A stretch of DNA of 64,000 nucleotides from Pseudomonas brassicacearum. Its GTDB lineage: Bacteria > Pseudomonadota > Gammaproteobacteria > Pseudomonadales > Pseudomonadaceae. The stretch is from the NCBI RefSeq assembly GCF_003732265.1, contig NZ_MOBK01000011.1, positions 186,001 through 250,000 on the forward strand, read 5' to 3'. The position numbers and the translations under genes are program-made. The notes below the pieces were generated by a model. That model ran no database searches and was not told the DNA's origin. It was given only the letters and a program-made list of their open reading frames with translations. Below, one piece after another: positions 1-16,701 of the stretch (positions are counted from its first letter, which is position 1; the number at the start of each line of letters is the position of its first letter).

Positions 1-232
1 GGAAAATCGTACCGAGCATCGAGTACAGATAACCCAGTTCGCTGTGGTTGATCTGGAACACTTCGAGCATGGTGGTCTGGTAAACCTGGCGCAGGTACAG
101 GATCGGGTAGATCGCACCGGCGGCCAGCACCAATAACATCAGTTGGAAATAGCGACTGCCCTTGTCACTCTGGCTGATTGAACCCGCATTTGAACCCTGA
201 ACAGCGGCAGCAGTGGATGCTTGCTTGGACAT
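1..232 (-). CDS. MFS transporter, N-terminal fragment (runs off window)
   Basis: Only the first 77 codons are present; the gene continues past the left edge. The ATG lies at 230-232. The first 28 residues are a hydrophilic Ser/Ala/Gly-rich tail, then residues 30-47 form a hydrophobic helix (MLLVLAAGAIYPILYL) followed by a short polar loop and the start of a second segment around YLYSMLG. This matches the beginning of a 12-helix major facilitator permease, perhaps of the YihN-like group, but the substrate cannot be read. It lies downstream of the AldA-like dehydrogenase on the same strand, with 158 bases between, and probably imports that enzyme's precursor. Confidence 0.7.
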   Translation of the reverse strand, partial: MSKQASTAAAVQGSNAGSISQSDKGSRYFQLMLLVLAAGAIYPILYLRQVYQTTMLEVFQINHSELGYLYSMLGTIF

Positions 233-390: not shown

Positions 391-1821
391 CTAGTACTTC
401 ATGACCACGAGACGGGTCTGGGTGAATTCGAGCATGCCGTGCTTGCCGTCATCGCCGCCCAGGCCTGAGCGTTTCCAGCCCGCGTGGTAGCCCTGGTACG
501 GGTCGGCCGGGGTGCGATTGACGTAGAGCTCGCCGGCTTCGATGGCGTTGGCGACTTTCATCGTGGTGCGGTAGTTCTCGGTGTAGAGCACCGAGGCCAG
601 GCCGAACTGATGGTCGTTGGCCATCGCCAGCGCTTCGTCGATGTCGCGGTACTTGAGCACCGGCAGCACCGGGCCGAAGATTTCTTCCTGGATGATTTCC
701 ATGTCCTGGCGGCAGCCGCTGAGCAGCGTCGGCGGGTAGAAATGGCCGTTGCCTTGCGGGATAAAACCACCGGTTTCCAGGACTGCGCCGTCCGCGATGG
801 CGCGCTCGACCATGGCGTGGATGTTCTGCTGTGAACTGGCGTTGACCAACGGCCCCATCAGGCTGGCGTCAGTGGCGCGGTCGCCGAACTTTACGGCGCT
901 GATTTTCGCTTTCAGCAGCGCGAGGAATTGGTCGTAGACGCTTTCCTGCACGTAGACCCGCTCCACCGCCGTGCACAACTGACCGCAGTGGGTGGTTTTC
1001 GAGGCGACGATGGCGGTCGCGGCGGCTTCAAGGTCGGCGTCGGCTTCGATGATCGCCGGGGTTTTGCCGCCCAGTTCCAGCGATGGCTTGGCGATGTTGG
1101 CCTTGCAGTAATCGAGCACGATGCGCCCGGCGTTGACGCTGCCGGTCAGGGTGATCAGGCCCACAGCCTTGTGCGTGCACACGGCGGCCGCAGTGGCGTG
1201 ATCCATGGTCAGGATGTTCACCACGCCCGCCGGCAGTCCGGATTGCACCACAGCCTTGGCGATTTCAAAGGCCGAGGTCGGTGTGTTGTTGCTCGGGCGC
1301 ACCACCACGGTGTTGCCGGCAATCAGCGCCGGGGCGATTTTGCGCAGTAGCGTATAGACCGGGTAGTTGAACGGAATCAGGCACGCAACCACGCCAATCG
1401 CTTCGCGGTGCAGGAACAGGTTTTCGTTCGGGCTGTCGCTGGGAATGATCTCGCCTTCAATGCGGCGGGCCCATTCGGCGTGATAGCGGGTGATCTGCGC
1501 GGCGTAACGGGCTTCGTTGCTTGCATCCGCAACGCTTTTGCCCGACTCGGCCGCCAGGGCGGCGCCGATGTTTTCAGCGCAGGCGTCAAGGGCATCGGCG
1601 AAAGAACGCAGGTGTTCGGCGCGTTCGATGCTGGTGAGTTTGCCCCAGACCTTTTGCGCGGCGGCAGCGGCTTCAACCGCGTTGACCGCTTCGACAGCGG
1701 TGGCCGCCGAGACGTGTCCGACCAGTGCTTCGGTCGCCGGGTTATAGACTGCGATCAGCGCGTCGCTGGCAGGTTCGATGAATTGGCCGTTAACAAAATT
1801 TCGCTCGAGTCGCATGTGCAT
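391..1821 (-). CDS. AldA-like NAD(P)-dependent aldehyde dehydrogenase
   Basis: A 476-residue ALDH superfamily protein of normal length with all catalytic elements: Asn152 (IPFNYP), the general base Glu249 (LELGGK) and the nucleophile Cys283 (GQLCTAVERVYV). The order of motifs and the run ...RRIEGEIIPSD resemble E. coli lactaldehyde dehydrogenase AldA, so small hydroxy-aldehydes are likely substrates, oxidised in the cytosol to carboxylates. One deviation is RPSNN (Arg175) where most relatives have KPSE in the cofactor pocket. There are two possible starts (Met1, Met3) and neither has a strong ribosome site. It lies between a LysR gene and an MFS gene on the same strand, suggesting one catabolic unit. 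Confidence 0.85.
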   Translation of the reverse strand: MHMRLERNFVNGQFIEPASDALIAVYNPATEALVGHVSAATAVEAVNAVEAAAAAQKVWGKLTSIERAEHLRSFADALDACAENIGAALAAESGKSVADASNEARYAAQITRYHAEWARRIEGEIIPSDSPNENLFLHREAIGVVACLIPFNYPVYTLLRKIAPALIAGNTVVVRPSNNTPTSAFEIAKAVVQSGLPAGVVNILTMDHATAAAVCTHKAVGLITLTGSVNAGRIVLDYCKANIAKPSLELGGKTPAIIEADADLEAAATAIVASKTTHCGQLCTAVERVYVQESVYDQFLALLKAKISAVKFGDRATDASLMGPLVNASSQQNIHAMVERAIADGAVLETGGFIPQGNGHFYPPTLLSGCRQDMEIIQEEIFGPVLPVLKYRDIDEALAMANDHQFGLASVLYTENYRTTMKVANAIEAGELYVNRTPADPYQGYHAGWKRSGLGGDDGKHGMLEFTQTRLVVMKY

Positions 1822-2098: not shown

Positions 2099-3040
2099 TT
2101 AGAGGGCGGCGGTTGAGGGTTCGAGCTGTCGTTGTGCCAACCAGATTTCTTCCTGCAACCACTGGCTGAACACCTGCAATTGCGGCATCAGGGTCTGCTC
2201 CGGCCGGGTGACCAGCCAATAGGACTGGTGCCCTTCCACGTGCACGTTAAGCACCTGGGTCAGCTGCCCGCTGGCCAGTTCCGGGGCGACCATGTGCCAG
2301 TCGGCGATGGTGATGCCCAGGCCGTCGATAGCCGCACGAATGGCCAGGTCCAGCAAGTCGAATTCATACCCGCCCTGAGTGTCGACACCGGTGATGCGTG
2401 CGGCGTCCAGCCAGTGTTTCCAGGTCAGGTAGCGCTGGTCTTCCCGGGCCAGTACATGCAGCAATGTCAGGCGATTGAGGTCGATGCCCTGCTCGCTCCA
2501 CTCCCGCGCATACAGGGTCGGCGCGCACACCGCGATGTGCCGTTCCTGGATCAGCATCGAACTGTTCAGGCCATCCCATTCGCCATCGCCGAAACGGATC
2601 GCACAGTCGAGGGTGCTGGTTTCCGCCAGGCTGTCCTGCAAGCGCGTGGTGATGCTCAGTTCCAGCTCGGGATGCTTCTCGCGCAACCGCCCCAGACGGG
2701 GCATCAGCCAGCGATTGGTAAAGGTTGGCGGTGCGTTGATGTGCAGGCGATTGGAATGGGTTTTCTGCTGGATGCTGCGCACCGTCAGCTCGATCTTGTC
2801 GAAGGATTGATGCAACGCCCGCAGCAGCACTTTGCCGGCGCTGGTCAGTTCGAGGTGATGGTGGCGGCGCTCCAGCAGGCTCTCGCCGAGCTGTTCCTCC
2901 AGCTGACGCACTTGGCGGCTGACCGCACTCTGGGTCACGTTCAACAACTCGGCGGCGCGGGTAAAACTACCGGTGCTGCCGGCCACTTCAAACGCCTTGA
3001 GGGCATTAAGACCGGGCATTTTGCGTTTCATGAAAAGCAC
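2099..3040 (-). CDS. LysR-family transcriptional regulator (GcvA-like)
   Basis: About 310 residues: an N-terminal winged helix-turn-helix (FTRAAELLNVTQSAVSRQV, roughly residues 26-44), then a linker helix and a substrate-binding effector domain (from about residue 95). The central RFGDGEW-type segment is typical of the GcvA/AmpR branch of LysR proteins. Start choice is uncertain: Met1, Met4 and Met8 are all possible; MPGLNALKAFE is the usual family beginning. It diverges from the outer-membrane barrel gene at 3217 and lies upstream of the aldehyde dehydrogenase, so it probably controls one or both. The effector is unknown. Confidence 0.85.
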   Translation of the reverse strand: MLFMKRKMPGLNALKAFEVAGSTGSFTRAAELLNVTQSAVSRQVRQLEEQLGESLLERRHHHLELTSAGKVLLRALHQSFDKIELTVRSIQQKTHSNRLHINAPPTFTNRWLMPRLGRLREKHPELELSITTRLQDSLAETSTLDCAIRFGDGEWDGLNSSMLIQERHIAVCAPTLYAREWSEQGIDLNRLTLLHVLAREDQRYLTWKHWLDAARITGVDTQGGYEFDLLDLAIRAAIDGLGITIADWHMVAPELASGQLTQVLNVHVEGHQSYWLVTRPEQTLMPQLQVFSQWLQEEIWLAQRQLEPSTAAL

Positions 3041-3216
3041 TCGAGGACGTTAGCTGATCGGCCAAGCATCCCATGGCCGCCACACATTGTCCTACAGGAT
3101 TTTCTCAGTAACATGCATCTGAGGAAGGTTTGCGCGCATTTTTAATCGTTTGTTCAACCCACCGTTCATCGCAAGACTGGCCGGCATCTCATATAAAAAT
3201 AACCGAGAGCTGTCCC

Positions 3217-4395
3217 ATGCCCTTCTCTGCTTCCCTGCGCCTCAGTCCTCTGTACATCGCTCTGTTCTGCACCTTTGCGGCCCCTGCCATGGCCGTGCAA
3301 GTGACCGACAACCTTGACCTCGGCGGCGCGGTTCGTGCGCGCTGGGACTATGACCCGGATCGCGACATCCAGAAGTTCGGCCTGGACACGATGTTCCTCA
3401 GCGCCAAGTACAACTCCGACACCTGGATCGGCGAGGCCCAGTATCGTTTCTACGGCCGGTCCTATCCGTATCAGTACACCAAGAATTACGGTGATATCCA
3501 GTTCGCCAAGTTCGCGTGGGCCGGCTACAAGTTCAACCCCGACCAACAGGTGCAAGTGGGCCTGAACACGGTGCCGTTCGGTCTGCAGCCGTACTTTGGC
3601 AGCACCTTCTACGAAACCCTGGGCAACGTCATCGGCCTGGAAGATGTGCAACAGGTCGGCGCCAAGTACGTCCAGCAATCGGGCGACTGGAACATTCAGG
3701 CCGGTTATTACTTGCGCCCGGCGTGGCAAGGCAAAGGCACCAGCAACGGGGTGACCTACTCCAGCGTGGTGTCCGAAGCCGACAGCTACGTCGCCGACGG
3801 CAGTAACAACCAGGAGCGCAACACCGTGGTGCTGCGGGTGGCCAAGGCACTGGACCTGGGACCGTGGAAATCGGAGGTCGGCCTCTCGGGCCTGAGTTCC
3901 TCACTGGAGAACAAGGACACCAATGACGATGGCCGACGCAATGCCGTGGCCATCCATTACCTGGGCAAGAACGGCCCATGGGGTGTGCAATTGCAGGCGG
4001 CGCGGCAACAAATGTCGCCGCGTAACCTAGGCACCGATGAGCTTGTCACCCTCGGCGGGTATGACGGCACGTACAACGTGGCCAGCCGCGGCAACTTGTA
4101 TGTGGCGGATCTCAGTTACGACGTGGCCGGGAAATACCTGTTCGATCAGGTCAGCGGGGTCAAGCTGTACGCCAACTACAGCGCCTTCGATAAATCCGCC
4201 AGCGAGTTCAAGACCTCGGAGCGGATGATTCTGGGCAGTTCGTTTTCGGTGAGTAAATTGTGGGTCGCTGCGGAGTGGTTGTTTGGCAAAAATGATCCGT
4301 ATATCGGGGGGAGTAGTTATACCCAGAGTCTGGGGGCTGGGGGGAGTGATCAGTGGGAGAATCAGTTGTACGTGAACATTGGGTATTACTTCTGA
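3217..4395 (+). CDS. Outer-membrane beta-barrel porin-like protein
   Basis: A 392-residue secreted protein. A Sec signal peptide ends near AAPAMA-VQ (residue 26). The mature part has alternating aromatic/polar strands (YGDIQFAKFAWAGYKF, WNIQAGYYL) and ends in Tyr-Phe, the C-terminal aromatic recognised by the Bam machinery, so it should be a barrel in the outer membrane. The start at 3217 was chosen because the signal peptide begins there; the 29 in-frame codons upstream do not look like protein. It is divergent from the LysR gene at 2099, which may regulate it. It is probably an uptake channel for the substrate of the local catabolic genes, by inference from position. Confidence 0.8.
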   Translation: MPFSASLRLSPLYIALFCTFAAPAMAVQVTDNLDLGGAVRARWDYDPDRDIQKFGLDTMFLSAKYNSDTWIGEAQYRFYGRSYPYQYTKNYGDIQFAKFAWAGYKFNPDQQVQVGLNTVPFGLQPYFGSTFYETLGNVIGLEDVQQVGAKYVQQSGDWNIQAGYYLRPAWQGKGTSNGVTYSSVVSEADSYVADGSNNQERNTVVLRVAKALDLGPWKSEVGLSGLSSSLENKDTNDDGRRNAVAIHYLGKNGPWGVQLQAARQQMSPRNLGTDELVTLGGYDGTYNVASRGNLYVADLSYDVAGKYLFDQVSGVKLYANYSAFDKSASEFKTSERMILGSSFSVSKLWVAAEWLFGKNDPYIGGSSYTQSLGAGGSDQWENQLYVNIGYYF

Positions 4396-4632: not shown

Positions 4633-5508
4633 ATGCGTCAACTGCCCTCGCTCAATATGCTGCGCGTCTTCGAAGAGGTCGCGCGTCATCGCAGTTTCAG
4701 CCAGGCGGCGCTGGGCCTGAACGTCACTCAAGGCGCCGTCAGCCGGCAGATCAAGCAACTGGAAGACTACCTCGGCGTCGCGCTGTTCGTGCGCACGCCC
4801 CAGGGCTTGTCGCTGACCGAATCCGGCATCGCCCTCTCCCCGCACCTCGCGGAAGCTTTCGATCACATTGAACGCGCCCTGCAAGCTGTGCGCGTGCCCA
4901 ACCTGCGCCAGCGCCTGAGAATCCTCGCGCCACCGACCTGGGCGACGCGCTGGTTGTCGGCGCATTTGCGTGTGTTCTGTCAGCGTTACCCCGACATCAG
5001 CCTGAGCGTGACCAACCAGGCCGGCCACGACAGCCTCGCGGAAATCGACTGCCACATCCGCTTCGGCCTCGAAGCCAACAACCATTGCAGCAGTCAATTG
5101 CTGGTGATGGAACGGCACATCGCCGTGGCCAGCCCGGAGTTGTTCAGCGACGGTCAGCCGCCGGATCTGCGAGGCTTCCCGCTGCTGCACATCCTGCACG
5201 ATGGCAAACGCCTGAAGGTCTGGGAAAACTGGCTGGCGGCCATGGGGCGCGACGATGTCGATCCGGCACAAGGGCTGGAATTCAGCACGCTGGATCAGGT
5301 GATCCACACCGCGTTGGCGGGGGGTGGGCTGGCGGTGATTGACCGGCAGATGATCGAGAAGGAATTGGCCAATGGCAGCCTGCTGCCGATTACCCCGGTG
5401 GAGGTGATCGGGCCGTATGGCTATTGGCTGGATGTGGCGAACGACAAGCAAGGGTTGTCGAAGGTGCGGTTGTTTACCGATTGGTTGGGATTAGTCAGCA
5501 ATCCCTGA
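4633..5508 (+). CDS. LysR-family transcriptional regulator (GcvA-like)
   Basis: 291 residues, beginning MRQLPSLNMLRVFEEVA, the usual LysR start. The helix-turn-helix is at roughly residues 17-45 (RSFSQAALGLNVTQGAVSRQI) and the effector domain from about 93 onward, including the IRFG motif of the GcvA branch. It lies tail-to-tail with the MFS gene at 5634-6998, the last gene of the Fae operon, separated by a REP doublet. It is the closest regulator gene to that operon, but the link is positional only. Confidence 0.85.
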   Translation: MRQLPSLNMLRVFEEVARHRSFSQAALGLNVTQGAVSRQIKQLEDYLGVALFVRTPQGLSLTESGIALSPHLAEAFDHIERALQAVRVPNLRQRLRILAPPTWATRWLSAHLRVFCQRYPDISLSVTNQAGHDSLAEIDCHIRFGLEANNHCSSQLLVMERHIAVASPELFSDGQPPDLRGFPLLHILHDGKRLKVWENWLAAMGRDDVDPAQGLEFSTLDQVIHTALAGGGLAVIDRQMIEKELANGSLLPITPVEVIGPYGYWLDVANDKQGLSKVRLFTDWLGLVSNP

Positions 5509-5633: not shown

Positions 5634-6998
5634 TTAGATCGGGGCAGGGACTTTCACTGCCACTGCCGCACCGCCCTCCACCGGGCTCTGCGCCTTGCAT
5701 GCCTGGCTCAGTGTCAGTGATTTGGTTTCCGGTGCCCACGCCCAGGACAGCCAGGCGCCGATGGCCAGGATCGCCGCCAGAATCCCCATCGTCGGGCTCA
5801 AGCCGATCCCCGCCACACTCACCGGCAACAGGAACGTGCTGATCGCCGAACCCAACCGGCTGACCGCCGTGGCCAGGCCGATCCCGCTGGCCCGCACTTC
5901 AGTCGGGAAGCTCTCGGCCGGGAACACGCCCACCAGGTTACTGACCGCCGACAACACCAGCGTGAACAGCCCAAACACCAACACCATCAGCAACGCTGCA
6001 CTGCTCGGCAACACCGCCAGCATGAACAACGCGACCGCCAGGATGATGAACGAGTTGATCAAGAACCCGCGGCGCGAGAATTTGATCGTGCACCAGATCC
6101 CGATCAACGCACCGAGGATCAGCAGCATGTTCAGCATCAGCTCAGTGCCGAAGCCTTCGGCCAGGCCCATCTTCTGCAGGATCGACGGCAGGAAGGTGTA
6201 GATGGCGAAATACGGCATGACGATGCAGACGAAAAACAGGCAGTTGAACGCGGTGCGCTTGCGGTATTCACGGCTGAACAGCACCGCGTAGCCGGAACGG
6301 GTTTCGGTGGATTGGGTTTCGTCGAGTTCGACGTTGGCGCCCAGGTGCTTCTTGACGATCGCTCGCGCCTCGGCAATTCGGCCCTGGTTCACCAGCCAGC
6401 GCGGCGACTCTGGCGTGCCGATGCGCGCAATCAGAATCAACGCCGCAGGAATCGCTGAAGACGCCAGCATCCAGCGCCAGGCGTCATCGCCGAGGCTGAG
6501 CATGGCGGTGCCGACAAATGTCGCGGCCACGTAGCCGAAGGTCCAGATCACGCTGAACGAACCGAGCAGCACGCCGCGATGTTTCTTCGGCGCGAACTCG
6601 GCCAGCATGGCGTGGCCGACACTGAAATCACCGCCCAGCCCGATGCCGATCAACACCCGGCACAGGAACAGGCCCATGGCGGTTTCGGCGTAGAACTGCA
6701 TCACCGAAGCAATGGTGATCAGCACGAAGCTGACCAGGAAGATTTTCTGCCGGCCGACCTTGTCGGAGATCCAGCCGAAAAACAGGCTGCCGAGGAACAG
6801 CCCAATCAGTGCCGAAGCGCCGATCAGTCCCTGCCAGAACGCATCCAGGTGCATCTGCGGACTCAGCAAGGTGAACGCGATGCCGATCAGGCCGAGGATG
6901 TAGCCGTCGGTGAAGTGTGCGCCGAAGGTCAGGCCGGCGATTTTCAGGTGAAAGCGCCCGATGGGCAGGTCGTCGATTTTTACCGGTTGTAAGGACAT
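5634..6998 (-). CDS. MFS transporter, sugar-porter type
   Basis: 454 residues with about 12 hydrophobic helices. It carries the MFS loop motif GWISDKVGRQKIF after helix 2 and the PESPRWLVNQGR signature before the central loop, as in sugar and aromatic-acid porters. It is an inner-membrane proton-coupled importer; the substrate is unknown. The ATG at 6998 (MSLQPVK) is preferred over an in-frame TTG at 7010 because GGAG lies at the right distance before it. It is the last gene of the minus-strand Fae/AKR/aldehyde dehydrogenase series and is separated from the dehydrogenase by a REP doublet. Confidence 0.85.
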   Translation of the reverse strand: MSLQPVKIDDLPIGRFHLKIAGLTFGAHFTDGYILGLIGIAFTLLSPQMHLDAFWQGLIGASALIGLFLGSLFFGWISDKVGRQKIFLVSFVLITIASVMQFYAETAMGLFLCRVLIGIGLGGDFSVGHAMLAEFAPKKHRGVLLGSFSVIWTFGYVAATFVGTAMLSLGDDAWRWMLASSAIPAALILIARIGTPESPRWLVNQGRIAEARAIVKKHLGANVELDETQSTETRSGYAVLFSREYRKRTAFNCLFFVCIVMPYFAIYTFLPSILQKMGLAEGFGTELMLNMLLILGALIGIWCTIKFSRRGFLINSFIILAVALFMLAVLPSSAALLMVLVFGLFTLVLSAVSNLVGVFPAESFPTEVRASGIGLATAVSRLGSAISTFLLPVSVAGIGLSPTMGILAAILAIGAWLSWAWAPETKSLTLSQACKAQSPVEGGAAVAVKVPAPI

Positions 6999-7050
6999 GT
7001 AAATCTCCAATTGTTGTTATTGACGGAGAAATGAAACCGATCGCTGTTTT

Positions 7051-7156: not shown

Positions 7157-8590
7157 TTAGAGACCGCCCATCAACAGGTATTTGATTTCCAGGTAGTCAT
7201 CCAGACCGTACTTCGAACCCTCGCGACCGAGGCCCGATTCCTTGATGCCGCCGAACGGTGCCACTTCCGTGGAAATGATCCCTTCGTTGATCCCGACCAT
7301 GCCGGCCTCCAGGCCTTCGGCCATGCGCCACACGCGGCCGATGTCGCGGCTGTAGAAGTAAGCCGACAAACCAAACGGCGTGTCGTTGGCCTTTTGCAGC
7401 ACTTCGACTTCGTCCTTGAAACGGAAGCAGGCCGCTACCGGGCCGAAGGTTTCTTCCTGGGCAATGAGCATTTCGCTGCTGGCTTCGGCGAGGATGGTCG
7501 GCTCGTAGAACGTGCCGCCGAGCACATGACGACTGCCGCCACACAACAGCTTGGCGCCCTTCTCCAGTGCATCGCCGACGTGCAGTTCAACCTTGGCCAG
7601 CGCCGCCGCGTTGATCAGTGGGCCTTGCTCGGTTTCGCCGTCCAGCGCACTGCCGACGCGCATCGCCGCAACGGCTTCGGCGAGTTTGCCGGTGAAGGCT
7701 TCGTACACACCGTCCTGAATGAAAAAGCGGTTTACACAGACGCAGGTCTGCCCGGTGTTACGGAACTTCGAGGCCATCGCGCCTTTGACCGCAGCGTCCA
7801 GATCGGCGTCGTCAAAGACAATGAACGGCGCGTTGCCGCCCAGTTCCAGCGAGACTTTTTTCAGGGTGTCCGCCGCCTGGCGCATCAGCAGTTTGCCGGT
7901 GCGCGTGGAGCCGGTGAACGACAGTTTGCGCACAATGCTCGACGCTTGCAGCGCCCCACCTATGGCCACCGCATCGCCCGACACGATGTTGAACACCCCC
8001 GCCGGAATACCCGCCTGTTCTGCCAACACCGCCAGGGCGAAAGCCGACAGCGGCGTCTCTTCCGAGGGCTTGAGGATCATCGTGCAACCGGCGGCCAGTG
8101 CCGGGCCGACCTTGCGCGTGACCATAGCCAGCGGGAAGTTCCACGGTGTGATCGCGGCGACCACGCCGATGGCTTCCTTGACCACGATGATCCGCGCATC
8201 AGCCTTGTGGCTCGGAATCACGTCGCCGTAAGCACGCTTGGCTTCTTCGGCAAACCACTCCAGAAAACTCGCGGCGTAGACAACCTCGCCCATGGCTTCG
8301 GCCAACGGTTTGCCTTGTTCGCGGCTGAGCAGGGTCGCCAGGTCCTTCTGGTTGCTCAGCATCAGCTCGCTCCAGCGCTTGAGCTTCTGGCTGCGCTCCT
8401 TGGCCGTGAGCTTGCGCCACGACGGTAATGCGCGATTGGCGGCTTCAATAGCCCGATTGGTTTCTTCGGCACCGGCCTTTTGTACGTCGATGATCAACTC
8501 GCCGTTGGCCGGATTGAACACCGGGTAAGTCGGGCCGCCGGACGACCATTGGCCGTCGATGAAATTACCCGTGCGGATCAGCGCGCTCAT
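7157..8590 (-). CDS. Succinate-semialdehyde-type aldehyde dehydrogenase (GabD-like)
   Basis: 477 residues, with every ALDH active-site element: Asn151 (TPWNFP), Lys174 (LKPSEE, cofactor ribose binding), Glu249 (LELGGN) and Cys283 ([12 protein letters not shown]). The second Cys two residues after the nucleophile is typical of GabD enzymes, which oxidise succinate semialdehyde with NAD(P). The true substrate may differ, because no gabT transaminase is nearby. Its start overlaps the stop of the aldo/keto reductase gene (ATGA at 8587-8590), so the two are translationally coupled in one operon with the Fae homologue. Confidence 0.88.
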
Positions 8591-9621
8591 GCCACAGCCT
8601 CGGTCAGGGTGAAGCGTTCCAGACCCGGACGGGCCGAACGCAAGATACGTTTGCCGGCGGTGTAATCATTGATCACGTCGCACGGGGTGTAATTGCGTTC
8701 CAGTTCGTGCAGTTCTTCGGCATCGAGTCTGGTATCGAGCGCGGCCAGGGCGCTGTCGAACTGTTCGGTGGTGTCAGCGCCCACCAGCATGCAATCCACA
8801 CCCGGATGATTGGCCACCCAGGCCTGGGCGATTTGTGCGTTGGACACGCCACGGGCACGGGCCACGCGCTGCACCGAATGGGCGATTTCGAACGAGGCTT
8901 CGTCGCTGTACATCTGCTGGGTGAAGAAATCGGTCTGGTTGCGGGTCGACTGCACGTCGCCGGTCAGCAAGCCACGGGCCAGCGGGCTGAACACCGAGAC
9001 GCCGAGGCCTTGGTCGCGGCAGAACGGAATCATCTCGCGTTCTTCTTCGCGGTAGGCGCAGTTCAGTTGCAGCTGCATGTTGATCGGCTTGACCCAACCA
9101 TTGCGCTCGCAGGCCATGAGGATCTTCGCCAGTTGCCCGGTGAGCATGGTCGAGACGCCGATGTAACGCGCCTTGCCGGAACGCACGATGTCGTTCATGG
9201 CGCTCATGGTTTCTTCAACCGGGGTGTTCACATCGAAGTAATGCAGCATGAACACATCGACGTAATCCATGTTCAGGCGCTTCAGCGAAGCGTCGATGCT
9301 GTCCATGATGTGCTTGCGCGAATGGCCGCTGGCGTTAATGCCGTTGCGGGTGCCGTAACCGACTTTGGTGGTAATGACCAGGTCTTCGCGACGGGCCAGG
9401 CGCTTGACGATGCGCCCCACCACTTCTTCGCCTGTGCCTGCGGAATAGAAGTCCGCGAGGTCGATGAAGTTCACGCCGTTGTCGAGTGCGTGCGCGACGA
9501 TTGGCTCGCTTTTCTTCTCGTCGAAGATCCACGGTTTCCAGTCCGGGGTGCCCATGTTCATGGTGCCCAGGCACAGGCGGGAGACTTGCAGGCCGGAGTT
9601 GCCCAAACGAATGTATTGCAT
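8587..9621 (-). CDS. Aldo/keto reductase
   Basis: 344 residues of the (beta/alpha)8 AKR fold, beginning MQYIRLGNSGLQVSRLCLGT as in the YajO/potassium-channel beta branch. The catalytic set is visible: Asp and Tyr in FIDLADFYS, Lys in VITTKVGY, and His in FMLHYFD. It reduces an aldehyde or ketone with NADPH in the cytosol. The start at 9621 is the family start; the 19 in-frame upstream codons overlap the intergenic gap. Its stop overlaps the dehydrogenase start and it begins only 10 bases after the Fae homologue, so all belong to one transcript. Confidence 0.87.
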   Translation of the reverse strand: MQYIRLGNSGLQVSRLCLGTMNMGTPDWKPWIFDEKKSEPIVAHALDNGVNFIDLADFYSAGTGEEVVGRIVKRLARREDLVITTKVGYGTRNGINASGHSRKHIMDSIDASLKRLNMDYVDVFMLHYFDVNTPVEETMSAMNDIVRSGKARYIGVSTMLTGQLAKILMACERNGWVKPINMQLQLNCAYREEEREMIPFCRDQGLGVSVFSPLARGLLTGDVQSTRNQTDFFTQQMYSDEASFEIAHSVQRVARARGVSNAQIAQAWVANHPGVDCMLVGADTTEQFDSALAALDTRLDAEELHELERNYTPCDVINDYTAGKRILRSARPGLERFTLTEAVA

Positions 9622-9631
9622 GGCGCGGACC

Positions 9632-10144
9632 TCAGGCTTTTGGCGTGTAGAAAGGGTTGCTGATGTGATTGACCACATCCGCCAGTTGCGCGGTTTCCGG
9701 CTTGCCGGTCAGCGCGGCACGGATCGCCGTGCGGCAGGCGTTGTAATTGTTCAGGTAGACCAAATCGAGGTCATCGCAGGCCGGGTTGACCCAGTTGGCG
9801 GTGACGATGGCCCATTCGTCTTCGGCTTCCGGCGGCAAGGTGCCGTCCAGCAGCGCTTCAAGTACAGCCTTGGCGATACCGGCTTGGGACGCGCCCCAGG
9901 TGGCGTTGCCGTGCAGGTCGCTGCTGATCGCCGCTTTGTTGACGTAAAGGGTCATTGGCTTGACCGGAATATTCGGCTGCGCAATCACCATGAACGGGCA
10001 GTGCCCCTGGCTTGGCGACGCCAGGCTGTTGGCAAACGCCTGGCCGGCCGGGCCGTTGCGCGGGCCGATCAGAATGTTGATGTGCGCGGCGTTCACGCCC
10101 GGGCCTTCGAAACCTTCACCGATGTACAGGTCGAGTTCTTTCAT
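9632..10144 (-). CDS. Formaldehyde-activating enzyme (Fae) family protein
   Basis: 170 residues colinear with Fae of methylotrophs and methanogens. Family hallmarks are IGEGFEGPGVNAAHI then ILIGPRNGPAGQAFANSL, QPNIPVKPMTLYVNK, and the C-terminal NPF. Known Fae condenses formaldehyde with tetrahydromethanopterin, using a His in the AHID motif; here the His is kept (His21) but the motif reads AHIN. No other tetrahydromethanopterin genes are visible, so the carrier or substrate must be different or the pathway lies elsewhere. It is the first large gene of an operon with AKR, aldehyde dehydrogenase and MFS genes, which supports a role in handling a reactive aldehyde. GAAGAG precedes the ATG. Confidence 0.82.
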   Translation of the reverse strand: MKELDLYIGEGFEGPGVNAAHINILIGPRNGPAGQAFANSLASPSQGHCPFMVIAQPNIPVKPMTLYVNKAAISSDLHGNATWGASQAGIAKAVLEALLDGTLPPEAEDEWAIVTANWVNPACDDLDLVYLNNYNACRTAIRAALTGKPETAQLADVVNHISNPFYTPKA

Positions 10145-10175: not shown

Positions 10176-10274
10176 TCAGAAACGCACGCAGGCAGCGGGC
10201 CTGGCGTGGCACATGTCGGGATTCGAAGAGCGCAGCAGGTCGCTGGCGAAGACGCGGCAGAGATGATGAGTCAT
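10176..10274 (-). CDS. Candidate 32-residue leader peptide upstream of fae
   Basis: A short reading frame (MTHHLCRVFASDLLRSSNPD...) ends with TGA 31 bases before the Fae start and contains three Cys, four Arg and the C-terminal ACVRF. It lies in the 5' leader of the operon. It could be a regulatory leader peptide or a chance frame: the ribosome site is weak and no comparison could be made. It was reported because it fills the leader and because it is the only plausible start between the operator palindrome and fae. Confidence 0.25.
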   Translation of the reverse strand: MTHHLCRVFASDLLRSSNPDMCHARPAACVRF

Positions 10275-10467
10275 GGTTGCAAACGCTCTTTTTTGTTGTT
10301 GATGAGCTGGTTTGCGATTTTTTAACACTGGGGGTTTGCGGGGCTGTAACCATTAAAAGTCATGAGGGTATGAGTTCAAGTCATACCCCGCATTTGAATG
10401 CCTGTACCGCACGGTGCTCTGCATTTGTGGTTAAAATGCCGCCCCCTCAAATTGCCGACCCAGCCCG
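10275..10467. other. Divergent promoter region, fae operon / methyltransferase
   Basis: 193 bases between the leader peptide and the methyltransferase gene hold AT-rich runs (TTTTTTGTTG on one strand, GGTTAAAAT near 10430) and a perfect inverted repeat at 10366-10388. No tRNA or other RNA gene is seen. Both transcripts probably start here. Confidence 0.5.
10366..10388. promoter_or_regulatory. Perfect inverted repeat, candidate operator
   Basis: GGGTATGA and TCATACCC form a perfect 8-bp inverted repeat around GTTCAAG. It is about 90 bases upstream of the leader peptide and 80 bases before the methyltransferase. The spacing suits a dimeric activator such as a LysR or AraC protein; the nearest candidate is the LysR gene at 4633. 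The binding protein is not known. Confidence 0.4.
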
Positions 10468-16065: not shown

Positions 16066-16701
16066 ATGCCAAAAGCCCTTTATCCCCTCGACAGAACCGC
16101 TTATCTGTTGGTCGATCCCTACAACGACTTTCTCTCCGAAGGCGGCAAAGTCTATCCGCTGATCGAACCGATCGCCGCACAAGTCGGCCTGCTCGACAAC
16201 TTGCGCGCACTCGATCGCACCGTCCGTGCCCTCGACATTCCGGTGGTCATCGTACCGCACCACCGCTGGGAAAAAGGCGACTACGAAAACTGGGATCACC
16301 CGAGCCCTACCCAATGCAAGATCATGCACATGCATCACTTCGCTCGCGGCGAATGGGGCGGCGAATGGCACCCGGATTTCGCGCCCAAGGATGGCGACAT
16401 TGTCGTTCAGGAGCACTGGGGGTCGAGCGGTTTTGCCAACACCGACCTTGATTTCCGTCTCAAGCAGAAAGGCGTTACCCACGTGATCATCGTTGGCTTG
16501 CTGGCCAATACCTGCATCGAGGCCACCGCCCGCTACGCCCAGGAACTTGGCTATCACGTGACCCTGGTGCGCGACGCCACGGCCGCGTTCAAGCCAGAAA
16601 TGATGCACGCGGCCCATGAACTGAACGGCCCGACGTTCGCCCATTCCATTGTGACCACGCCAGAACTGATCGCCACGTTGACCCAAGGTGAGCGCCCATG
16701 A
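16066..16701 (+). CDS. Isochorismatase-fold cysteine hydrolase
   Basis: 211 residues. The catalytic Asp17 (LLVDPYNDF) and nucleophile Cys150 (GLLANTCIEATAR) of the family are present. The usual catalytic Lys is replaced: the strand reads DIVVQEHWGSSGF with Glu116 near the Lys position. Amidases and N-carbamoyl or pyrazine-amide hydrolases belong to this fold; the substrate is not predictable. Its last four bases (ATGA) start the next gene, an aldehyde dehydrogenase, so they are co-translated. It is controlled probably by the divergent HxlR regulator. Confidence 0.82.
   Translation: MPKALYPLDRTAYLLVDPYNDFLSEGGKVYPLIEPIAAQVGLLDNLRALDRTVRALDIPVVIVPHHRWEKGDYENWDHPSPTQCKIMHMHHFARGEWGGEWHPDFAPKDGDIVVQEHWGSSGFANTDLDFRLKQKGVTHVIIVGLLANTCIEATARYAQELGYHVTLVRDATAAFKPEMMHAAHELNGPTFAHSIVTTPELIATLTQGERP

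Follow-up and report, generated by a model that had tools for sequence, protein, structure and literature searches.

An apparently tetrahydromethanopterin-independent clade of formaldehyde-activating enzyme homologues in a conserved aldehyde operon of Pseudomonas and its relatives

To our knowledge, the fold of the formaldehyde-activating enzyme (Fae) has been described only for the transfer of C1 units to a pterin. A gene for a Fae homologue is present in a 64,000-nucleotide stretch of Pseudomonas brassicacearum DNA (the window), where it heads an operon for aldehyde-converting enzymes "with no methanopterin genes in sight", as an earlier reading of the letters alone (the sequence-only reading) had put it. 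This raises the question of what the fold is used for in such a host. The operon (operon 1) and its surroundings consist of the following features (some gene calls, including those in the operon 2 region described further below, came from a codon-usage script):

2099..3040, minus strand: LysR regulator 2, whose relatives are ~39% identical to LysR regulator 1
3130..4395, plus strand: porin-like protein, start uncertain (no Pfam or NCBIfam match; "porin" is a reading of the sequence)
4633..5508, plus strand: LysR regulator 1 (GcvA-like, by Pfam and NCBIfam), convergent with operon 1
5634..7010, minus strand: MFS importer at the end of operon 1, similar to sugar porters or aromatic-acid symporters (scores under the cut-off of each NCBIfam model shown)
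7157..8590, minus strand: GabD-like succinate-semialdehyde dehydrogenase (SSADH; TIGR01780, best PDB match 3jz4)
8587..9621, minus strand: aldo/keto reductase (AKR; Pfam Aldo_ket_red, E 8e-68); translation probably starts at the ATG at 9621, within an ORF that is open from 9678
9632..10144, minus strand: AHIN-type Fae homologue (AHIN-Fae) of 170 amino acids, identified by HMM, fold and tree, first structural gene of operon 1
10176-10274, minus strand: 32-codon upstream ORF between the 5′ block and fae
10275..10329, minus strand: 5′ block conserved upstream of Pseudomonas fae, with an inverted GCAAAC/GTTTGC pair

The tight packing of fae with the genes for the AKR, the semialdehyde dehydrogenase and the MFS protein, which had been noted before, was confirmed: 10 nt separate the fae stop from the AKR start, the AKR and SSADH genes overlap by 4 nt, and the MFS gene follows at a distance of ~150 nt. 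The assignment of the 170-residue protein to Fae was likewise borne out. Its ORF lies on the minus strand, all the motifs quoted earlier are present, and the match to the Fae HMM, the failure of which had been named as potential counter-evidence, was strong (PF08714, E 2.3e-49, 167.9 bits versus a cut-off of 27); no other Pfam domain was found in the protein. A PDB sequence search returned two matches, 1y5y and 8ub7_B (an "Avd" chain containing a Fae stretch). The AF2 model (mean pLDDT 92.7) superimposed on 1y5y with a Z score of 25.9 (rmsd 1.8 over 158 residues) and on 1y60 with a Z score of 25.7, the best non-Fae structure reaching only 9.7. The host genome, 6.47 Mb in 485 contigs with a completeness of 100, encodes this single Fae. 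The protein also passes the cut-off of the NCBIfam "formaldehyde-activating enzyme" equivalog (TIGR03126, 138 bits versus 118), so automatic annotation could assign a tetrahydromethanopterin (H4MPT)-dependent reaction to pseudomonads in which no H4MPT markers are detected.

Capture of formaldehyde is not confined to the Fae fold; that of the glutathione-dependent formaldehyde-activating enzyme, Gfa, is unrelated. Gfa resembles the Fae scheme in that carrier-dependent capture of formaldehyde is followed by a dehydrogenase, but differs, according to excerpts of PMC4776306, in being zinc-dependent and in using glutathione as the carrier.

How far AHIN-Fae has departed from the canonical enzyme was apparent from 180 distinct Fae stretches, which were grouped by identity, not by motif. 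The first group comprised 118 sequences with 51–100% identity to the window protein, mostly from close Pseudomonas relatives, and the second, canonical group 53 sequences with 60–100% identity to Fae of Methylobacterium extorquens; the remaining nine comprised the protein of Streptomyces clavuligerus, which reads AHIN at 44.7% identity, and eight His-less proteins, which read AMPE or AEPE. The replacement of AHID by AHIN, which the sequence-only reading had pointed out for the single protein, turned out to be a feature of the whole clade (AHIN in 117 and SHIN in one of the 118 sequences, as opposed to AHID in 43 and AHVD in 10 of the canonical 53). A separate count with classes defined by motif gave 119 distinct AHIN rows and is circular for the His and the Asn. 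At 40 positions, three of which are gaps in canonical Fae, the two groups differed in state while each was at least 95% fixed; among them (M. extorquens numbering) are D24N, Q79H, M83T, F84W and F119W. The His of the AHID motif is presumably the catalytic residue of Fae, and His22, Asp24, Leu53, Lys71, Thr73 and Gln88 are taken here to be its pterin contacts. His22, Lys71 and Gln88 were invariant in both groups (118/118 and 53/53). In contrast, Asp24, Leu53 and Thr73, each present in 53/53 canonical sequences, were replaced in the window-like group: Asp24 by Asn in 118/118, Leu53 by Met (83), Val (33) or Gln (1), with Leu in one, and Thr73 in all but 1 of 118. In a tree of 48 rows, as had been suggested with the clade to be marked, one change sufficed for each class, and AHIN formed one separate group (support 92/82) next to AHID (91/86) and the His-less proteins (100/99), with which it did not branch. 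The support for the AHIN clade is good, though not overwhelming; it lies below the star that the tree program itself awards. Thus, AHIN-Fae resembles Fae of M. extorquens AM1 (5,6,7,8-tetrahydromethanopterin hydro-lyase; 1y5y and 1y60) in fold, length, the His and a conserved core, but is only ~30% identical to it, belongs to a separate clade set apart by the 40 near-fixed differences, and differs from it in its gene neighbors and in a host that lacks the H4MPT markers tested.

Those markers, Mch, Ftr, TIGR03123 and β-RFAP synthase, were all absent from the whole genome of the host; the search consisted of these four, and each of them was detected in two to four genomes of a control set of 14, both methanogens being among the positives each time. 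The statement that no methanopterin genes are in sight can thus be extended to the entire genome for the four markers, none of which gave any indication of the full H4MPT pathway that would have contradicted it. Mch was also sought in 74 chosen genomes, among them 60 of the 76 Fae-matching genomes of family f20 (probably Burkholderiaceae, judging from named plasmid relatives) and 12 of the 58 from Pseudomonas. It was present in 10/10 genomes that have canonical Fae and lack a full AHIN-Fae and in 22/22 genomes with both (partial in G918), as compared with 0/42 genomes with AHIN-Fae alone (28 from f20, 12 from Pseudomonas, G441 and G461). Canonical Fae and Mch therefore travel together (32/32 versus 0/42), and AHIN-Fae is indifferent to both. 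AHIN-Fae is almost certainly H4MPT-independent. Of the earlier proposal, the part supported by the absence of the markers together with the fixed gene partners is that the Fae fold serves independently of H4MPT, within a conserved operon for aldehydes/semialdehydes that includes an importer; the different aldehyde or carrier that it also envisaged would be a further step. The clade amounts to a clean natural experiment, in which fold and His were kept while the surroundings changed, with fixed partner enzymes and in hosts without the cofactor; identifying the substrate would reveal what Fae can do apart from H4MPT.

The AHIN-Fae clade is widespread and extends to a second phylum. A Fae match was found in 58 of the 298 genomes drawn from the genus, full length in 57 (89–100% identity) and a remnant of 62 residues in one (G121). 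Among 249 genomes of f20, 76 matched, 52 with a full-length copy of at least 288 bits (54 places); some of the other matches were only broken pieces (149–198 bits and smaller), and the rest, at no more than 147 bits, were canonical or more distant Fae. A draw of 398 genomes from the phylum yielded 22 with any Fae-like match, six at 284 bits or more (the own genome, one from the same family and four from the same class) and the others at no more than 144. No match at the AHIN level occurred among the 50 matching genomes of the 297 from family f51, which appears Rhizobiaceae-like (top score 152.7 bits). The class draw (369 genomes, E ≤ 1e-50) returned the own genome alone, having missed other AHIN-Fae because the clade is concentrated in few families and the draw was sparse. 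Scanning of genome contigs gave 331 relatives; the best 80 of these 331, which were kept, were all titled Pseudomonas save one MAG labeled Paucimonas. Named Pseudomonas records share the region, with up to 99% identity for fae and up to 100% for the operon genes, and the S. clavuligerus Fae was found on 16 plasmid records of that species. A phage origin of the locus was considered and rejected, no match being present among 50,697 phage records.

Passing the equivalog cut-off and occurring so patchily in the genus (58/298) would also befit a stray H4MPT enzyme, acquired horizontally and without function in these hosts, as would the existence of two decayed loci. One of these (L154, ~9791) contains a fae remnant of ~60 codons and neither AKR nor SSADH; the other (L155, ~9681) contains a full fae and the MFS gene, again with neither AKR nor SSADH. 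Such an origin is barely credible, however, given that the 57 Pseudomonas copies are full length with 89–100% identity, that the residue signature is strict, and that AHIN-Fae is retained in at least 22 f20 genomes alongside a separate canonical Fae. It also conflicts with the constancy of the gene neighborhood. Both AKR and SSADH were encoded within 6 kb of AHIN-Fae in 80/80 Pseudomonas and 20/20 f20 loci, an MFS protein in 69/80 and 11/20, and a LysR protein in 73/80 and 14/20, respectively; two of the 11 Pseudomonas loci without MFS (L086 and L100) lie where the contig ends. A porin-like gene accompanied operon 1 in 57/80 Pseudomonas loci. Both partners were present in nine of 11 further genomes, the other two being those with the decayed loci L154 and L155, and AKR and SSADH were also found with AHIN-Fae on three Burkholderia/Caballeronia replicons and an Ensifer plasmid. 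Homologues of AKR, SSADH, MFS and LysR were found, at the cut-off used, in 0/20 stretches around canonical Fae (13–20 kb each; six from f20). At the Fae locus of S. clavuligerus, SSADH was 46% identical, and no AKR match but a 3-hydroxyisobutyrate-dehydrogenase-family enzyme was present. On the plasmid record examined (L036, 4502-11778), Fae, a glycine-betaine-type ABC importer, the 3-hydroxyisobutyrate-dehydrogenase-family gene and SSADH lie together, and an NRPS/PKS gene lies a few kb away.

The same neighborhood bears on whether AHIN-Fae is an enzyme at all. A formaldehyde sensor, EfgA, does exist (excerpts of PMC8153426), and AHIN-Fae might serve its operon non-enzymatically as an aldehyde sensor, carrier or chaperone; the sequence-only reading had also entertained a role in sensing aldehydes. 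Nothing sensor-like was found at the locus, and sensing in the manner of EfgA was rejected. The idea gained no support from the other data either: the His and the presumed Lys and Gln contacts are kept, Pfam detected no domain beyond Fae, fae stands at the head of an operon of enzyme genes, and most loci have a distinct LysR gene close by (73/80 and 14/20, as given above). Any non-enzymatic role is thus very improbable. As a member of a catabolic pathway, on the other hand, AHIN-Fae is placed with considerable confidence; this pathway would be present in about one-fifth (58/298) of the sampled genomes of the genus and in Burkholderia relatives.

The partner enzymes give some indication of the compounds handled. 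The AKR of the window contains the motifs DLADFY, TTK and MLH (DLADFY in 107/108 relatives), whose D, Y, K and H are taken to be its catalytic tetrad. SSADH scored 694 bits with TIGR01780 (cut-off 646) and 746 bits with PRK11241 (cut-off 828), i.e., it remained under the latter equivalog. It contains TRK (108/108 rows), RNTGQTC (RN.GQTC in 107/108) and a Ser motif of 11 letters, seen in the window protein only; the two Arg and the Ser presumably are the carboxylate-binding positions. Because the subfamily score was passed and the Arg motifs are kept, the substrate of this SSADH is probably a C4-like semialdehyde. Like GabD-type SSADH operons, operon 1 thus contains, as its third gene, a dehydrogenase that exceeds the SSADH subfamily cut-off and has its best PDB match in 3jz4, which we take to be E. 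coli GabD. Unlike in those operons, it is partnered by Fae and AKR, and no aminotransferase was present among the seven window proteins scanned.

While the enzymes are constant, the importers are not: three types (MFS, OpuAC-type ABC and Dpp-type ABC) occur with AHIN-Fae. In the f20 loci of type II, the MFS of operon 1 was missing from 8/8, and an OpuAC-type ABC importer was carried, with the gene for the binding protein adjoining that of the permease in five of the eight and lying across the fae operon in three; at least five of the eight also hold another MFS gene. A Dpp-type binding protein, 60% identical to its counterpart in Ensifer, was encoded in 10/80 Pseudomonas loci, nine of which lack the MFS gene. 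A core of enzymes combined with exchangeable importers is the pattern to be expected of nutrient catabolism. In the OpuAC-type protein of the type-II loci, Trp residues are aligned with Trp of ProX (1r9l) and of 7yle, which presumably form the ligand cage, and this hints at a cationic ligand. Naming the substrate from the importers was nevertheless rejected, the MFS, OpuAC-type and Dpp-type proteins being in disagreement on the substrate class.

A second group of genes, partly outside the window, was associated with fae and is here regarded as operon 2:

391..1821, minus strand: ALDH2, a PRK10090-type aldehyde dehydrogenase (525.7 bits versus a cut-off of 500), which heads the inferred operon 2
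1..232, minus strand: MFS gene following ALDH2, 5′ part in the window
contig C10, 184920-183694 (= L256:13694-14920), outside the window: enolase-superfamily gene
contig C10, 183531-181924, outside the window: GMC oxidoreductase gene

In the own genome, ALDH2, which we take to be AldA-like, MFS, the enolase-superfamily protein and the GMC oxidoreductase are encoded in this order. Beside AHIN-Fae in f20 (L250) lie genes whose products are 84% identical to this enolase-superfamily protein and 66% identical to this GMC oxidoreductase. An ALDH2 homologue of more than 50% identity was found in 22/80 Pseudomonas, 7/26 f20 or plasmid and 0/20 canonical control loci, the enolase-superfamily gene (at least 84%) in 7/8 type-II, 2/18 type-I and 0/20 canonical loci, and the GMC gene in 7/8, 3/18 and 0/20, respectively, all such counts in stretches of 10–20 kb being lower bounds. 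The enolase-superfamily protein scored best with galactonate dehydratase, yet below the cut-off, and possibly lacks the first metal ligand, since FGTHGQ stands where galactonate dehydratase presumably has DFHGR. The relative encoded in f20 (L250:17356-18573) matched over the whole length PDB entry 4e4u (E 1e-243), named mandelate racemase/muconate lactonizing enzyme. The gene for this dehydratase-like protein (E ≤ 1e-180) was present in 53 of the 298 genus genomes, namely in 52/58 with fae as compared with 1/240 without (Fisher P 4e-50, uncorrected for kinship); six fae-bearing genomes lacked it at the cut-off used, and one of the 52 sharing both (G121) carries the fae remnant only. In 16 of the 52, fae and the dehydratase-like gene were either more than 25 kb apart on the same contig (four) or on different contigs (12). 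With AldA-like and GMC enzymes next to a dehydratase-like protein, the pathway would seem to oxidize an alcohol to an acid and then to remove water. Unlike the Trp residues of the OpuAC-type protein, the genes for the AldA-like and dehydratase-like enzymes hint at a substrate of the polyol or aldonate kind.

Taken as a frame, and not for each of its steps, an H4MPT-independent catabolic enzyme with C1-like chemistry is a somewhat better than even description of AHIN-Fae. An imported hydroxylated compound would be oxidized to an acid by GMC and then ALDH2, the acid would be altered by the dehydratase-like enzyme of the enolase superfamily, and AHIN-Fae, AKR and the GabD-like dehydrogenase would degrade the product to a C4 dicarboxylate that enters the citric-acid cycle; whether a C4 semialdehyde stands at the end of the pathway is evenly balanced. 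In this scheme, AHIN-Fae most likely would keep the C1 chemistry of its parent, formaldehyde being added or released with the conserved His acting as the acid, and an intermediate of the pathway would take the place of H4MPT. The subfamily, the lack of the four markers, the constant gene partners and the association with operon 2 are established, whereas the direction of the pathway, its substrate, formaldehyde as the C1 unit and the C4 product are inferred. Such formaldehyde chemistry on a pathway intermediate is favored because His22, Lys71 and Gln88 are fixed, and formaldehyde chemistry as such has a little less than an even chance of being what AHIN-Fae performs.

Because so much else in AHIN-Fae has changed, the main rival is a different small carbonyl: the fold may have abandoned formaldehyde and been recruited, within the same pathway, to act on another small carbonyl or alcohol intermediate, be it as lyase, isomerase or dehydratase. 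The 40 near-fixed differences, D24N, Q79H, M83T, F84W and F119W among them, speak for such a change, as does the fact that, fae aside, operon 1 contains no known gene of a C1 pathway, but the invariance of the same three residues in all sequences of both groups does not, and this reading is considered unlikely, albeit the least so of the alternatives. Tetrahydrofolate (H4folate) is a related pterin carrier and expected in these hosts. AHIN-Fae could load onto it formaldehyde freed elsewhere in the pathway, which would fit the absence of H4MPT markers and a parent protein that is tetrahydromethanopterin-dependent according to the titles of the structure entries. The loss of Asp24 and Thr73, two of the presumed pterin contacts, argues against such scavenging, and no folate-C1 gene was present among the chosen subset of neighbors scanned by Pfam; we regard it as rather improbable. 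Within formaldehyde chemistry on a pathway intermediate, the preferred reading, a more specific version can be formulated, although it is a long shot. AHIN-Fae, removing or accepting formaldehyde, would be a formaldehyde lyase for a β-hydroxymethyl 2-oxo acid, which operon 2 would make from a branched or C4 polyol (e.g., apiitol/apionate or a tetritol) via an aldonate and dehydration, and AKR and the GabD-like enzyme would oxidize the remaining 4-hydroxy-2-oxobutanoate to oxaloacetate. If true, this would be a carrier-free C–C lyase use of the Fae fold. Alternatively, the substrate could be an alcohol of the betaine type, since OpuAC-type importers flank two of the lineages.

Upstream of fae, the short ORF begins directly after the 5′ block in 53/80 Pseudomonas loci, and hardly any sequence separates the block from the fae ATG in 12/80; the pattern used for the block missed 15/80 loci. 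The ORF was present in 36/81 loci in 35 distinct versions, whose differences were spread evenly over the codon positions (5317, 5133 and 4630). There is thus no sign of selection on the encoded peptide, and the ORF was rejected as a leader peptide. A promoter scan gave one site versus 2.3 in shuffled sequences.

Divergent Fae homologues are already known in methylotrophs; the AHIN-Fae clade and its operon appear new. Among the open-licence literature, which misses most subscription papers, no paper was found on the clade, its operon or the pairing of Fae with AKR and SSADH, and the available excerpts of PMC8879981, PMC4776306, PMC7073904, PMC5209427, PMC3160333 and PMC12180729 contain nothing on clade or operon. 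The third group of Fae proteins, with AMPE or AEPE in place of AHI(D/N), comprises eight distinct sequences (L142, L143, L144, L145, L146, L147, L037 and L245) and presumably corresponds to Fae2/Fae3 of methylotrophs. Judging from excerpts, single fae2 and fae3 mutants of Methyloversatilis grew like the WT on C1 compounds (PMC5023235), and a table of PMC4109929 lists fae2/fae3 for Methylophilaceae. AHIN-Fae is similar to these in being a divergent Fae homologue of unclear function, but the organisms dealt with in those excerpts possess the H4MPT pathway. One f20 genome (L245) carries AHIN-Fae at 7220 and a His-less Fae-like gene at 16546, ~9 kb apart, and in further f20 genomes, AHIN, canonical and distant Fae scores occur side by side.
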